Shown one piece after another: positions 32,150 to 39,182 of a stretch of DNA of 57,491 bases. The notes under the pieces were generated by a model that saw only the letters and a list, made by a program, of their open reading frames with translations, ran no database searches and was not told the DNA's origin. The DNA comes from a virus. Position numbers and translations under genes: made by a program. The DNA lies in the IMG/VR virus record IMGVR_UViG_3300042525_001082, positions 1-57,491 of that record; one strand, given 5' to 3'. Every line of letters begins with the position of its first letter. Position 1 is the first letter of the stretch.

Positions 32150-35100
32150 ATGATTATTCAAAGACATCGAGACGAGTTCCTGGCTTCAGCTATTCATCCC
32201 CATATTATCGACTTAAACTTTGAGTCACTCAAGGGACAGGATGCTCTTGAAGCCGTATTATACGGGGAGATGGAAGCTCTAGGAAAAAAATCACCCCACT
32301 CGCTTCAGTACACCACAACCCCCCTCAAGAGGCTTTTTGAACGCTTCAAGCACCTAGAGGACGGGGGGTGGAGTTTTAGGGGCGTTGATCCTCTCAACTG
32401 TTCCCAATATATGAAATGGGGATGTTTTAAAGCCGATAGACCTCGCTATAGTTTCAGCGACCTATTGAAGATGATTAAATACGAGCATCCGGGGAAAGTG
32501 CCTACACGAGCATTTTTCGTGGTGCCATCCTGGGAGATTGGGGTAAAAATAGCCATCAAAGCGGGTGAGCAGTATATTGAAAGCTACAAGTCCCGATGTC
32601 CGCAAGGGGACTTTGATTGGAGTGAGGGCGATCGCTACTTTTGGGAGTGGGCAATTGAGATCAACTTGCCAATCACGATCACCGAGGGGGCTAAGAAAGC
32701 AGCGTGCTTGATATCGGCGGGATACGCTTGCATCGGATTACCTGGGATTACTGGGGGAGTGCGGACTAGCCGAGAGGACGGTAACGGATTTAAGGAGAAG
32801 TGCGCTCCTTACCTGATTCCTGAGTTAGAGATTTTTGTGACGACAGGGCGACGGGTGAATATTGTTTTTGACCATGAAACAAAAATCAAAACCATTCGCA
32901 ACGTCCAAAGGGAGATAAATAAATTAGGTGAGCTTTTTCAGAAGGACAAACGGGATGTCCGTGTGATCAGTTTTCCTGGGCCAGAGAAGGGAGTTGATGA
33001 TTTTATCATGGCGCATGGAGAAGAAGAATTTGATCTTCTATATAACAAGGCTCCTGATTATCGGATTTATCAATTCAACAGAGGGTGGCAACTAACCAAG
33101 ACTCCGACATTGACCCTAAACGTTCGATATTTGGGAGATTTACCCACTCCTACTACTGGGTCTGTTTTTATCTACTCAGGCATGGGAACAGGGAAAACTA
33201 AACGGCTAGAACCTATCGCCCAGGATGCTATTGCTAGTGGGCGGAGGGTTTTGGTGATTACCCACAGGGTTGAACTTGGGCGGGCAATCTGCAATGCGGT
33301 GGGTGTGCCTTGGGTTGAGGAGTGCAAGGGAAGCGTTGAAGGGAAAACCCTGGGGTATGGTTTGTGCGTAGATAGTTTGCACCCCCTGAGCCAAGCCAGT
33401 TTTGACCCAGAGGCTTGGGAGGGTGCTGCGGTGATCATAGATGAAGTTGAGCAAGTCCTTTGGCATTTGTTCAATAGTTCAACCTGTGCCGAAAAACGGA
33501 CAGCAATCCTTTCAAGTCTGGAAACGTTACTGAAAAGCGTTCTAACAACGGGAGGATTATTAATTGCCCAAGATGCCGACCTTTCAAATTACTCAATTGA
33601 CTACCTTACGGAATTGTCGGGGATTGAAAATCTGGAACCCTACATTGTCGTCAATAAATACAAAGGAAACGGGCGCAAGGTTCATTTCTATAGCCATAAA
33701 GTCGAAGCACTCTATAAAGAGATAGACAAGCAAATTCGTGAAGGCAAGCGAATGATAATCGTGGAGGATAGCCAAAAAGTTAAAGGCAAGTTCTCAGCAA
33801 TCAATATGGAATCACACATCCGCAAGAATCATCCCCACGTCCGTGTTATTCGGATTGACTCGGAGACTGTATCAAATCCAAATCACCCGGCTTTTTGCTG
33901 TGCAAAAAACATTGACACGGTGATTGAATCGGGTCAATATGACGTTGTGATTGCTTCCCCCACAATCGGGACAGGTGTATCTATTGACCTCAAAGGCTAT
34001 TTTCACAGCGTGTTTGGGCTTTTCAAGGGAGCGATCGCCACAAACGATGTCCTCCAGATGATGTCGCGGCTTCGGGACTTGGCGGCTGAATGGCATTTAT
34101 GGTGCGCTCAGTACGGGTGCAGCAAGGTTGGGAATGGGTCATCTGGCGCGCACGTCCTCCTTGAATCTCAAGATCGGGTGACTCGCAAGCATATCGAAAT
34201 CTTAGAGAAATACGACAGGGCAGGATTTGATATCGACACCCAAACCGACACACGGCACACAAGTGCGTGGGCTAAGTATGCGGCACGAATCAACGCAGGG
34301 CAGTGGAAATACCGAGAAACGGTTCTTTACCTATTGAAACAGGAAGGGCATGATGTTTCCAATTCGGATGATTCTCAAATGCGATTTGACGAGGATAGAT
34401 TAGCTTCTGAAGAAGCGATCGCCCGACAAATGGGGGATTTAGAGAAAGCCGACGATATTCAATACGAACGGGGACGGATTGAAGTCATCACGGACGAGCT
34501 TGACAGTAAGATTCAGGTAATCAAAGCCGAGGCGGAGGAGATTCGCACCCAGAATCGGGTGGCGAACGCCGAGGTAATCACGAACGCGGAGGATATTTCG
34601 TTCTCTAAATACGAGAAGCTGCAAGACAAGAAAGCTAAAACCCCAGAAGAACTGGCGGAGCAGCAAAAATACTACCTGAAGGACACATATAAAATAGATG
34701 TCACGCCAGAGCTTGTCTTAAAGGACGAGGACGGTTGGCTAAAACAGCTACGATTGCACTATTTCTATATGAATCCTGAGCAAGTTCATGATCGGGATGC
34801 CAATCACATCAAAAATGCGGTACAAAACGGGGATGGGCAAGTCCACCTGCCGGACATCAAACTTTATAGTGCCTGTGTTGAAATTCTCAAGTTGATGGAA
34901 CTGGATCGATTCCTGAACGGAGAGGAATTTACTAATGAATCCGAATTGATCCAAAAACTAGGCAAAATCTTCAAGGAACAGGGGCGAGAGATTCGGGAAT
35001 ATTTTAAGGTAGGGCCGACAGGCTTGACCCCGATTGCTCAGATCAACCGATTTTTCAAAGATACTATTGGACTAAGAATGTCTGGGCGGCAAATCCGTGA

Positions 35101-35722
35101 CGAGGAAGGGAATAGAACAAGAGCTTATTCCTTCAAAGGCTTTGAGGATGGACGTTCTGTGGTTTTTGAAGCCTGGGATAAAAATGTAGCCCAATATACC
35201 AATAACGAGATAATGGCTGTCACACCAAAACATAATAGAAGATTAATACAAAACACTGACACCACTAATAAAATTCAGTGTGATCAAATTCAGTGTGATC
35301 ATGGAGAAGAAGGAACACCCTTTCCAGTAGATATAAAGCGGGGGGAAGAAGCCCAGCAAGTAGCGATTTCATTGACCGAGCCAGAAGAAGCTCAAAACAC
35401 TCCCAAAGATTGGCAAAATCAGGGGAGTGCGGTGGGTTCCGGTACTTTGGTAGAGGCGGTGTCGAATAGTTGGAAGGGTGTTGTGCGGCTGGTTAAGTCG
35501 GTCTTCCCTGAATGTTGGGTAGCTAAGTATGAAGTCAGCTTCCTAAAACGAAACCTCTTGCTAGAAACAGCAGGGAAGGCATTTACAATCGACTCACCCG
35601 CCGCACAATGGGTTCATAACGCATTAGACCCCGATGGTGGTGCATGGGCTTTCCAGGGCTACATAGAGGGCAGTACGCAGATGTACACAATCCCTCTGGG
35701 ATGCCTGGATTTCAATCCATAA
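32150..35722 (+). CDS. CyRepA1-like plasmid replication protein (DUF3854 plus helicase-like part, 1190 aa)
   Basis: The N-terminal third holds a DUF3854/Toprim-like part: ITITEGAKKAACLISAGYAC near residues 174-193 and a VFDHETK acidic strand. A superfamily-2-like helicase follows: YSGMGTGKTK near 341-350 (Walker A), AAVIIDEVEQ near 427-436 (Walker B), ASPTIGTGVSIDL near 602-614, and MMSRLRD near 637. This order matches the cyanobacterial plasmid initiator CyRepA1. A long helical middle and a variable tail follow. The stop codon lies inside the first CRISPR repeat, and two tandem copies of ATTCAGTGTGATC are inside the gene near 35275. It is the best evidence that the element replicates as a plasmid. 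Confidence 0.8.
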   Translation: MIIQRHRDEFLASAIHPHIIDLNFESLKGQDALEAVLYGEMEALGKKSPHSLQYTTTPLKRLFERFKHLEDGGWSFRGVDPLNCSQYMKWGCFKADRPRYSFSDLLKMIKYEHPGKVPTRAFFVVPSWEIGVKIAIKAGEQYIESYKSRCPQGDFDWSEGDRYFWEWAIEINLPITITEGAKKAACLISAGYACIGLPGITGGVRTSREDGNGFKEKCAPYLIPELEIFVTTGRRVNIVFDHETKIKTIRNVQREINKLGELFQKDKRDVRVISFPGPEKGVDDFIMAHGEEEFDLLYNKAPDYRIYQFNRGWQLTKTPTLTLNVRYLGDLPTPTTGSVFIYSGMGTGKTKRLEPIAQDAIASGRRVLVITHRVELGRAICNAVGVPWVEECKGSVEGKTLGYGLCVDSLHPLSQASFDPEAWEGAAVIIDEVEQVLWHLFNSSTCAEKRTAILSSLETLLKSVLTTGGLLIAQDADLSNYSIDYLTELSGIENLEPYIVVNKYKGNGRKVHFYSHKVEALYKEIDKQIREGKRMIIVEDSQKVKGKFSAINMESHIRKNHPHVRVIRIDSETVSNPNHPAFCCAKNIDTVIESGQYDVVIASPTIGTGVSIDLKGYFHSVFGLFKGAIATNDVLQMMSRLRDLAAEWHLWCAQYGCSKVGNGSSGAHVLLESQDRVTRKHIEILEKYDRAGFDIDTQTDTRHTSAWAKYAARINAGQWKYRETVLYLLKQEGHDVSNSDDSQMRFDEDRLASEEAIARQMGDLEKADDIQYERGRIEVITDELDSKIQVIKAEAEEIRTQNRVANAEVITNAEDISFSKYEKLQDKKAKTPEELAEQQKYYLKDTYKIDVTPELVLKDEDGWLKQLRLHYFYMNPEQVHDRDANHIKNAVQNGDGQVHLPDIKLYSACVEILKLMELDRFLNGEEFTNESELIQKLGKIFKEQGREIREYFKVGPTGLTPIAQINRFFKDTIGLRMSGRQIRDEEGNRTRAYSFKGFEDGRSVVFEAWDKNVAQYTNNEIMAVTPKHNRRLIQNTDTTNKIQCDQIQCDHGEEGTPFPVDIKRGEEAQQVAISLTEPEEAQNTPKDWQNQGSAVGSGTLVEAVSNSWKGVVRLVKSVFPECWVAKYEVSFLKRNLLLETAGKAFTIDSPAAQWVHNALDPDGGAWAFQGYIEGSTQMYTIPLGCLDFNP
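35274..35304 (+). repeat. Tandem AAATTCAGTGTGATC motif inside the replication gene
   Basis: Two adjacent 15-bp copies code IQCDQIQCD. The core ATTCAGTGTGA is the reverse complement of the iterated motif before tmk (11792-11851). Replication proteins often have their iterons within or near their gene, so this may be an origin or autoregulation site. Confidence 0.5.
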
Positions 35723-36188
35723 AATAGGCAATCGTCTATTGCGGGGTAGCTTGTTCAGAGGGATTGATCGCACTCTATTCGTTTCAATCCATAAAATAGG
35801 CAATCGTCTATTGCGGATAAAATCGCATATCAAAACCCTCCCAAACATTGCATGTTTCAATCCATAAAATAGGCAATCGTCTATTGCGGGAGCAACCGCG
35901 CCATTGCACTGTTTTTGTGAACTATGTTTCAATCCATAAAATAGGCAATCGTCTATTGCGGGAACGATGGGGAAAACTTCGGCGGGTAATTGCTAACCAA
36001 AGTTTCAATCCATAAAATAGGCAATCGTCTATTGCGGGCCCAAGCTCAAATTCTTGGGGGGTATATTGACTATCAGAGGTTTCAATCCATAAAATAGGCA
36101 ATCGTCTATTGCGGGTTCTAGCTCCCCTAGATTAACTGTAGTCAGGTTTTCCGTTTCAATCCATAAAATAGGCAATCGTCTATTGCGG
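35709..36188 (-). CRISPR. CRISPR array, seven 36-nt repeats and six spacers
   Basis: Repeats start at 35709, 35781, 35854, 35926, 36002, 36079 and 36153. On the plus strand the unit starts GTTTCAATCC and ends CTATTGCGG; it is otherwise identical except that the first base of the copy at 35709 is A. Six of seven copies are followed by a G. Spacers are 36, 37, 36, 40, 41 and 38 nt and all differ. I favour minus-strand transcription: the repeat then ends ATTGAAAC, the degenerate copy lies at the far end, and the array follows cas12 in the same direction. Pairing of GCAAT/ATTGC near the end of the unit would also allow plus-strand reading. Confidence 0.95.
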
Positions 36189-36204
36189 GAGCTTAATCCG
36201 CAAT
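36182..36204. repeat. Inverted repeat formed by the last repeat and the cas12 gap
   Basis: ATTGCGG at the end of the seventh repeat pairs with CCGCAAT at 36198-36204, giving a 7-bp stem over 9 bases. It sits in the 20-nt gap before the cas12 stop and may guide processing or mark the leader end of the array. Confidence 0.5.
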
Positions 36205-36208
36205 TGTT

Positions 36209-37885
36209 TCAGGCGTTTCTATCGAAATCACCTAAGCTCATTTGATTTATTATAGCATGAGTTTTGGTGGTTTCGGCAACTAAAAAATCGTGAACCCCGT
36301 TTTTAAACAAATTATCTGGAATCGTTATGGTGTCTGACTTTTTGGTTTTTTTCTTGGTTGCCTTTTTAGAAGAGCTAGGGGTTGCCGAATTTTTATTAAT
36401 CAGGAATTTATACCAGAAATTATCGGACAATTCCACACCTTGATTGATTGCCATTTGAGCTAAACCTTTTAACTTAATGTTCTGTCCTGAGTTGACATCA
36501 CGAGCAACGGTATAACCACAATTAGAGCATTTGTGAGTGCGTTGAGATAGCTTTTTCTTCTCTTGATGTCCACACTTCGCACAACATAAAGTAGTTCCCC
36601 AATTATCAACCCGAATCACTAATTTTCCGTGTTCCTTTGCTTTGGTTTCTAATAAATCAATAGCTTGACCAATAGCTACATCACTCCCTGTTCTGTTACT
36701 TCCTCGTTTGCGTTTTTGACTATTTTTATCGTAGATAACTGTACCATTTTCGGCAACCACTGGATTTCCTTCTGTGTCTAATTTTGCCTTGGCTTTAGCT
36801 TTTCGGTAGACGTTGGCGGGTTTGTAATCCTCAACAAAAATCACGTCAAACCAATTGATTAAATTGGTAGAATGCCAGTGATTGAATGATCGGCGGTGAC
36901 GGGCGATTTTCTCATGAAGTTTAGCAATTTTATTATTGAGTTTCTCCCAATTCTTAGTTTTCCCCTCGTTCATTCGATACTTGCGAGATAATTGTTGCTG
37001 CATTTTCCTTAGACGTTTTAGCGATCGCTTTAAAGGTTGTGCAGCCTCAATAGTATGACCATTATCCAATGCCATAACAAACTGATGTCCGGGGTCAATT
37101 CCACAACATAACCCTGTCTTCTTGGCTTGTTTGACAGGGACGGACGCAGTTAATTGTATATACCACCCCGACGCTTTTTTGCAAATTTTCATCGGGTTAA
37201 AATCGCAACCATACCACCGTTTATCAAATCCAATTACTTCGATATAACCCAATTTTGGAATATTGATCTTACTGTCCTTAACGCCTAGATCCTTAGCGTT
37301 GTAATGGATTAAAGTCATTACCTTATCTTTAGCTGTTTTGAAACGTGGACGACTGTGGCGACCCGCTAAAAATCCCTCCCAAGCCTTTGATAGTTCATGC
37401 GCTACACCTTGAATAAATTTTGCCGGGCAATCGGTGAAATTAACTTTTCGCTCCTCACCTCTAACTAAATAAGTCACAATCCGATCCTTGTGGTGCTGAT
37501 GTCCAAATACCTTTAGAAACCCGTATAGTACCGACTTTTTAGAATCCAGTGAGTCAATAATAGGACTATTTTCATCAATGGCGACAGGATGGATTAACCC
37601 CTTTTTCTTCTCGACTCGCTCAATCCCCATCTTCCAATCTGGGATCTCAATTCGTACCCATTGCTTGAGCTTGCGGTCGTATCGTTGCAGGGGAGTTGCA
37701 GGGACGTTAGACTTTGACAGTTTATCGTAAGGGTTCCACTCGTTAAATTCCTCTATCAGTCCTAACGAGCGATTCCAAACCCACTTACAAACTAGCATCC
37801 AATCTTCTAGGGTTCGCTCTTGTTCTGAAGATAAAATGAGTTTAAACTCCTTTGTTCGCACATTTTCGCTAAAATTAGAAGACAT
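36209..37885 (-). CDS. cas12: TnpB-like Cas12 effector nuclease (type V, V-U2-like, 558 aa)
   Basis: The C-terminal half is a RuvC nuclease: CGIDPGHQF (Asp264), FVEDYKP (Glu352), and ARDVNSGQNI (Asp463). A zinc site, Cys435/Cys438 and Cys453/Cys456, lies between the last two. N-terminal features follow the TnpB/Cas12 plan: EQERTLEDWMLVCKWVWNRS helix, then HSRPRFKTAKDK near 177-187 and a basic linker. Intact D/E/D residues argue against Cas12k, which lacks them. It is longer than usual TnpB (about 400 aa). It lies beside a CRISPR array and a predicted tracrRNA. I place it near the V-U2 group known from cyanobacteria, on recall and not on alignment. A transposon TnpB is the less likely choice. 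Confidence 0.8.
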   Translation of the reverse strand: MSSNFSENVRTKEFKLILSSEQERTLEDWMLVCKWVWNRSLGLIEEFNEWNPYDKLSKSNVPATPLQRYDRKLKQWVRIEIPDWKMGIERVEKKKGLIHPVAIDENSPIIDSLDSKKSVLYGFLKVFGHQHHKDRIVTYLVRGEERKVNFTDCPAKFIQGVAHELSKAWEGFLAGRHSRPRFKTAKDKVMTLIHYNAKDLGVKDSKINIPKLGYIEVIGFDKRWYGCDFNPMKICKKASGWYIQLTASVPVKQAKKTGLCCGIDPGHQFVMALDNGHTIEAAQPLKRSLKRLRKMQQQLSRKYRMNEGKTKNWEKLNNKIAKLHEKIARHRRSFNHWHSTNLINWFDVIFVEDYKPANVYRKAKAKAKLDTEGNPVVAENGTVIYDKNSQKRKRGSNRTGSDVAIGQAIDLLETKAKEHGKLVIRVDNWGTTLCCAKCGHQEKKKLSQRTHKCSNCGYTVARDVNSGQNIKLKGLAQMAINQGVELSDNFWYKFLINKNSATPSSSKKATKKKTKKSDTITIPDNLFKNGVHDFLVAETTKTHAIINQMSLGDFDRNA

Positions 37886-37913
37886 ACCTATTTAAGAAAT
37901 TGAAATGTATATA

Positions 37914-37942
37914 TTGACATTTCCATTATATACAACTATAAT
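37914..37942 (+). promoter_or_regulatory. Perfect sigma-70 promoter of the predicted tracrRNA
   Basis: TTGACA (37914-37919) and TATAAT (37937-37942) match consensus at all twelve positions and are exactly 17 bases apart. The likely start is near 37949. It is divergent from cas12, whose ATG is at 37885. Confidence 0.85.
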
Positions 37943-37944
37943 GG
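37923..37944. promoter_or_regulatory. Operator-like palindrome on the tracrRNA promoter
   Basis: CCATTATA and TATAATGG form a perfect 8-bp inverted repeat with 6 bases between. The right arm contains the -10 box of the tracrRNA promoter, and the left arm holds a TATAAT on the opposite strand toward cas12. It could be bound by a repressor that couples both. Confidence 0.55.
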
Positions 37945-37948
37945 AATC

Positions 37949-38097
37949 ACCGACGTTTAGATCGGCAAGCCAAAAGCTGCCCTTGGAGCCGAAAGGATTA
38001 ACGATTAGGCGATGAAGAGGGAATATTCTCTAACCAGATATGGTTAGCAATTTTAAAAATAGGTAATCAACTTAAAAAGGGGCTCCGGCCCCTTTTT
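37949..38097 (+). ncRNA. Predicted tracrRNA of the Cas12 system (about 150 nt)
   Basis: The RNA begins about 7 bases after the TATAAT. Hairpins follow in order: CCGA/UCGG; GC-AGC/GCU-GC; CCUU/AAGG; and a 7-bp CUAACCA/UGGUUAG stem with a GAUA loop (38030-38047). The segment AAAATAGGTAATC at 38056-38068 pairs with the minus-strand repeat over 13 positions, 12 Watson-Crick and one G-U. A second weak pairing is GTTTAGATC (37955-37963) with the repeat end. The RNA ends at AAAAAGGGGC-UCCG-GCCCCUUUUU, a UNCG-loop terminator. No open frame fits the region. Confidence 0.78.
38074..38097 (+). terminator. UNCG-loop terminator of the tracrRNA
   Basis: AAAAAGGGGC (38074-38083) pairs with GCCCCTTTTT (38088-38097) around a TCCG loop, closed by C-G as in the very stable UNCG family, and ends in a T run. 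Confidence 0.9.
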
Positions 38098-38170
38098 AGT
38101 GGACTCCATCTATTGTCCTGATATTGTCCTGCCCACAAAATCAGAATCAAAAAGGACATCGCAACACCTC

Positions 38171-38255
38171 AAAAAATATTTTCAGAAAACGCTTGACATA
38201 TTCTGGATATCTGTACTATATTAATTGTAAGGATAAAACACAAGCAAAGGACAAA
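38171..38255 (+). repeat. Copy 1 of an 85-bp exact direct repeat with promoter
   Basis: It is identical base for base to 39098-39182. It holds TTGACA (38193-38198) and TATATT (38217-38222) at 18-base spacing and ends in a GGACAAA stretch before the start codon of the next gene. Confidence 0.95.
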
Positions 38256-38868: not shown

Positions 38869-39099
38869 ATGCAATGCCCATCCTGCAACACCGCAATGTG
38901 GCTAGACGGATTTAAGAGAGGTCGTCAAGCCTACAAATGCCCTGAATGCCACAAACAGCTAACAGATCCCGCACAACAGGGAAAAGCAGGGCGACCCAGT
39001 GGCACATCAAAAGGTCGGACTTGCACCCTCTGTGACAAACCCCATTACGCCGGGGGATTGTGTCAAATGCACTACAGGAGGGAGAAACGGAAGAAATAA
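38869..39099 (+). CDS. Double zinc-ribbon protein (76 aa)
   Basis: I chose ATG 38869 (MQCPSCNTAMWLDGFKRGRQ). It has a CPSC/CPEC zinc ribbon with AYKCPECHKQ and then a second site (CTLC...GGLCQMHY). The same two-part layout is seen in the protein at 43288, so both belong to a small family carried by this element. Its stop touches the second 85-bp repeat. Probably nucleic-acid binding. Confidence 0.65.
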   Translation: MQCPSCNTAMWLDGFKRGRQAYKCPECHKQLTDPAQQGKAGRPSGTSKGRTCTLCDKPHYAGGLCQMHYRREKRKK

Positions 39100-39182
39100 A
39101 AAATATTTTCAGAAAACGCTTGACATATTCTGGATATCTGTACTATATTAATTGTAAGGATAAAACACAAGCAAAGGACAAA
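39098..39182 (+). repeat. Copy 2 of the 85-bp exact direct repeat with promoter
   Basis: It is identical to 38171-38255, with TTGACA at 39120-39125 and TATATT at 39144-39149. It starts inside the stop of the preceding gene. Confidence 0.95.

Follow-up and report, generated by a model that had tools for sequence, protein, structure and literature searches.

The type V-U2 (C2c8-like) CRISPR-Cas12 systems have so far been largely an in-silico class; a review of 2021 gives their function as unknown (PMC7889808), and a table of 2024 shows them without a protospacer-adjacent motif (PAM) and lists no trans-activating CRISPR RNA (tracrRNA) for them (PMC11641405). V-U2 on a cyanophage is already known from vB_AphaS-CL131 (CL131), for which neither a tracrRNA nor a PAM was reported and one of ten spacers was matched, to a primase pseudogene (PMC6293099). 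V-U variants of huge phages are likewise phage-borne, mostly without Cas1-Cas2, and have spacers against other phages; the work that describes them does not appear to give a tracrRNA or PAM for V-U2 (PMC7162821). Cas12k (type V-K, formerly V-U5) is cyanobacterial, compact and uses a tracrRNA and a GTN PAM (PMC7889808). Here we describe a locus on the IMG/VR virus record IMGVR_UViG_3300042525_001082 (57,491 bases, the whole of which is called the window), which belongs to a virus of Planktothrix, a cyanobacterium that forms blooms. The locus is probably a phage-carried V-U2 CRISPR-Cas12 system that uses a tracrRNA and a CRISPR RNA (crRNA), receives its spacers from the host and acts against competing replicons; the effector family, the linkage of the parts, the turnover of the spacers, the targets and a GTN flank can be read directly from the sequences.

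The effector, a protein of 558 residues, is encoded on the minus strand (36209..37885). Its best NCBIfam family was C2c8, although the score of 305 bits falls short of the curated cut-off (350), and its best PADLOC family was Cas12u2 with 358 bits, whereas the NCBIfam TnpB models reached 174 bits, far under C2c8. The NCBIfam model Cas12f2 gave 36.5 bits (cut-off 450) and one PADLOC model labelled Cas12f gave 331 bits, below Cas12u2. In a maximum-likelihood tree, a branch with a support of 100/100 separated the eleven V-U2 proteins (from the window, four sibling phages, CL131, plasmids of Microcystis and Chroococcidiopsis and three cyanobacterial genomes) from 20 cyanobacterial TnpBs; the tree covers V-U2 and TnpB proteins but neither Cas12f nor Cas12k, and some of its branches are long. 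The likeness to V-U2 that the initial annotation had pointed out was thus borne out by families and tree, and a grouping with ordinary IS605/IS1341 TnpB was not seen. By its sequence the locus is V-U2, with a single compact effector of the C2c8 family that has RuvC and a zinc ribbon, an adjacent array and no adaptation genes at the locus. CL131, which falls in the same clade, also has a V-U2 effector and an adjacent array without adaptation genes, but the two effectors are only ~30% identical and the repeats are unrelated. An AlphaFold model of the effector had a mean predicted local distance difference test score (pLDDT) of 39 and was not used.

All catalytic and zinc-binding residues claimed for the effector were found, i.e. 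the RuvC residues D264, E352 and D463 and the zinc ribbon ligands C435, C438, C453 and C456, and the catalytic triad is present in 10 of the 11 V-U2 proteins compared, the exception being the copy from Chroococcidiopsis. Cas12k, in contrast, is non-cutting and serves a Tn7-like transposon, whereas the window effector has all three RuvC residues and general scans recognised no transposition genes. An action without cutting, in which the effector would bind DNA in a programmable way and so block genes of plasmids or phages, has a precedent in Cas12m, another V-U lineage that protects through binding (PMC11013384), and one V-U2 relative is without RuvC residues; since the window effector and nine of the ten other V-U2 proteins retain D264, E352 and D463, we consider this rather unlikely. 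The C2c8 proteins of Chroococcidiopsis plasmids (L046, L047) have lost both the RuvC residues and the zinc ligands and have no array nearby; they may represent a V-U2 effector that is dead or has been put to another use.

The array (35709..36189, crRNA on the minus strand) comprises seven repeats of 36-37 nt (CCCGCAATAGACGATTGCCTATTTTATGGATTGAAAC, followed by the spacer) and six spacers of 35-40 nt, with a repeat spacing of 72-77, in agreement with the seven repeats counted before. It is located 20 bases from the effector gene, and this adjacency is also seen in the siblings. Array, effector and a divergent RNA form one unit that is present in 19 further IMG/VR contigs, found in a search that recovered effectors of 78-100% identity plus one TnpB; no close copy of the cas12-tracrRNA unit was present among 386 cyanobacterial genomes. 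The window and its siblings contain 14 different arrays, in which common spacers are mostly cas12-distal and differences cas12-proximal. Since, in addition, the last window repeat is degenerate, new spacers would enter at the cas12-proximal end. There, beside the newest repeat, a flank overlapping the 3' end of cas12 (36190..36240, minus strand) is identical (GAGCTTAATCCGCA...) in every sibling array that extends so far and presumably acts as leader. A 5'-side GTN PAM, the spacer polarity and the degenerate repeat at 35709 together suggest that the crRNA reads in the direction of cas12, on the minus strand. Repeats drift inside single arrays, older ones having, for instance, GCGG where newer ones have GCGA, and the arrays of L019, L020 and L024 contain two or three distinct repeat versions ordered along the array; therefore, the repeat copied at acquisition changed over time. 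In L024, isolated copies of both repeat types flank a tRNA-Met-like gene (recognised by eye; L024:11119-11300), far from the main array, and one of these copies sits within a reading frame.

On the plus strand, divergent from cas12, lies the candidate tracrRNA of ~155 nt (37945..38103). It is preceded by a promoter, TTGACA-17-TATAAT (37914..37942, plus strand), that agrees with the consensus at 12 of 12 positions and whose TTGACA is retained in all siblings. A terminator-like hairpin with a G+C-rich stem, GGGGCTCCGGCCCC followed by T5 (38079..38097, plus strand), was read from the sequence and is absent from the output of the consensus scan that found the promoter. The block folds better than its shuffles (z = -2.54). 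A comparison with Rfam gave no match. In its 3' part, the anti-repeat AAAATAGGTAATC (38056..38068, plus strand) pairs with GATTGCCTATTTT of the crRNA repeat over 13 uninterrupted base pairs. All 18 sibling contigs in which the block is readable have conserved it, including L024, whose effector is 78% identical, and similarity ends past the terminator. A duplex-energy scan placed the best repeat duplex at the same RNA position in each of four sibling types. In L024, repeat and anti-repeat have both diverged and still match: the L024 anti-repeat gave -14.4 kcal/mol with its own repeat versus -11.9 or weaker otherwise, and the anti-repeats of other lineages paired poorly with the L024 repeat (-7.7). 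Because of this conservation and the matched divergence, the structured, repeat-pairing RNA noticed at the outset is very likely a tracrRNA, as judged by sequence.

Other V-U2 loci resemble that of the window in having an effector with the array downstream, namely those of the Microcystis NIES-2481 plasmid p1 (L045) and of the genomes G244 (L153) and G176 (L154), but differ in their 23 to 81 repeats and in a gap between effector and array. In L045, at least 23 repeats with the end ATTGAAAC come after C2c8; L153 and L154 are chromosomal-type loci with ~80 and 39 repeats, the latter adjoining mreC-mreD, and a check of a few neighbouring genes recognised none for adaptation. Since the anti-repeat scan of CL131, Microcystis, G244 and G176 gave nothing beyond shuffled repeats, we claim no tracrRNA for them.

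To find targets, 96 spacers were compared without gaps, at up to 27% mismatches, with reversed spacers as control. Ten spacers matched 1.04 Mb of sibling phage sequence (reversed: 0) and 20 matched plasmids of Planktothrix agardhii (0.73 Mb; reversed: 0), as compared to none in sequence from other cyanobacteria (0.43 Mb; reversed: 1). With further Planktothrix contigs, chiefly a 12.9-kb element of genome G288, the total rose to 43 of 96, again without a reversed match, and all 10 records matched among the 72,556 plasmids of PLSDB were from Planktothrix. The matched replicons are Planktothrix plasmids, a small Planktothrix element and sibling phages, which supports the earlier suggestion of a use against rival phages or plasmids. 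Spacer S15 of the L010 array matches without mismatch in the sibling G001, itself a V-U2 carrier. Among the window's own spacers, two have their sites, with 1 and 4 mismatches, within the replication gene (CyRepA1) of plasmid LR882964, and a third fits several plasmids at 5 mismatches. Hence the CyRepA1 family is encoded beside the window array and is also targeted on a rival plasmid; such plasmid replication genes distinguish the targets from those of the huge-phage systems. Other targets included DUF3987 genes and a small gene conserved on the matched plasmids. No spacer matched among 50,697 phage records, and when viral contigs were searched for exact copies of two spacer motifs, only the arrays themselves came back. 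The small element matched by many spacers (L209; genome G288, contig C5, 12.9 kb) codes for a primase-helicase and a HerA-like ATPase and may be a plasmid, satellite or virus. The most-targeted small phage gene (L051:2688-3188) may, by sequence reading only, code for a Rad52-like annealing protein, with no match in Pfam, PHROGs or NCBIfam.

Taking the best site of each of the 43 matched spacers, G was found at position -3 in 34 and T at position -2 in 35; GT at -3/-2 was present in 28 of 43, versus a background of ~5% (P ~2e-26), which predicts a 5'-flank PAM of GTN. No clear depletion of mismatches beside the PAM was apparent in the matched spacers. Cas12k has this PAM too (PMC7889808), and for type I-D the PAMs GTN and GTH are described from Synechocystis and Microcystis (PMC10212523). 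One study found type I-D in every P. agardhii isolate that it covered, and the repeat there is of 37 nt and ends in ATTGAAAG (PMC9398003); this system has a multi-subunit class 1 effector and its own adaptation genes. An explanation centred on the host type I-D system would account for the equal PAM and for the repeat length of 37 nt and the ATTGAAA end, but the rest of the repeat is unlike that of host I-D, the linkage of effector, RNA and array persists across contigs, the anti-repeat matches the repeat in each lineage, best between cognates in L024, and the effector retains its catalytic residues, so that we regard it as improbable. Returning to the phage-carried V-U2 system, the host may nevertheless have a part in it. 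As the initial annotation had stated for adaptation genes, dedicated searches found neither Cas1 nor Cas2 in the window or in seven related virus records; the same searches found both in one Planktothrix genome. The absence from the window is taken from these searches and not from PADLOC, which was run on all 63 window open reading frames and, among the matches listed (25 families), does not itself exclude small Cas proteins. Since the tested carriers are without Cas1 and Cas2 and share their PAM with type I-D, spacers would be inserted into the phage array in trans by Cas1-Cas2 of the host, most likely those of its I-D system. The chances are about even that immunity is split between virus and host in this way, the phage providing an interference module (V-U2 Cas12 and tracrRNA) whose repeat and PAM fit host I-D adaptation and the host writing the spacers against the phage's competitors.

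Silencing of host chromosomal genes by the spacers, which the initial annotation had also considered, was proposed for the CL131 system (PMC6293099), and some spacers of huge phages aim at host chromosomes (PMC7162821). Here, the matched spacers fall in plasmids, the small element and sibling phages; when about one third of the spacers were scanned against 10 Planktothrix genomes, the best matches, as far as contig size is known, were on plasmid-sized contigs and chromosomal matches extended over ~22 nt or less, mostly from one low-complexity spacer, which makes such silencing very improbable. That the effector is an ordinary TnpB beside an unrelated array is hardly credible: TnpB models do score 174 bits and, of the natural proteins with a solved structure, the TnpB of 8bf8 is nearest, but C2c8 and Cas12u2 models score much higher, the tree contradicts it with 100/100, no Y1 transposase was found and the linkage with the array is retained across contigs.

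In the V-U2 system as we envisage it, the divergent RNA would pair as tracrRNA with the repeat to give a dual guide, and the guided Cas12 would cut, as its intact RuvC site suggests, or block GTN-flanked targets in competing replicons. The likely benefit is that competing plasmids and sibling phages are excluded and the phage keeps the host cell. Several points weigh against this. The dual guide and the cutting or blocking of targets are deduced from sequence only. The window anti-repeat taken alone is modestly beyond chance, as 8 of 300 shuffled repeats equalled the 13-bp helix; the longest helix stands out more strongly in L021 and, compared with shuffled repeats, is not beyond chance in L024. 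Many target matches carry 5-9 mismatches and 53 of the 96 spacers were without target. Finally, GTN alone cannot tell a PAM of the effector from that of an adaptation complex, and the virus records may be fragments, with Cas1-Cas2 possibly outside of them.

The whole locus is compact (~2.4 kb) and, as noted before, lies beside a replication gene: a gene for a CyRepA1-type phage/plasmid replication protein (32150..35722, plus strand; NF042913, 430 bits; phrog_4913) adjoins the array, and its 3' end (35722) overlaps the last, degenerate repeat. Other phage-like genes of the window code for head decoration and virion structural proteins, a sliding clamp, NrdF, thymidylate kinase, a Holliday junction resolvase, methyltransferases and an anti-repressor. 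The claim that transposition genes are missing holds for the Y1 transposase (Y1_Tnp, TnpA), which was found neither in the window nor in siblings; of the Tn7-like genes tnsB, tnsC and tniQ, none was seen in general family scans, with no search aimed at them. An exact 85-nt duplication (38171-38255 and 39098-39182) contains a promoter-like block, TTGACA-18-TATATT, ahead of two small genes.

In sum, the predicted tracrRNA and PAM, the targeting of plasmids and the spacer turnover appear to be new beyond CL131 and the huge-phage V-U variants, as judged from the open-access literature; other work may exist. The contigs now supply a predicted tracrRNA, a predicted GTN PAM and natural targets, and therefore a V-U2 system can be rebuilt and tested directly. 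The CRISPR memory of these phages turns over, with adaptation genes found on none of the tested records, and phage-plasmid conflicts in a bloom-forming cyanobacterium are tied to one compact effector. The spacers aimed at competing phages and plasmids suggest a use for the poorly understood V-U2 class.
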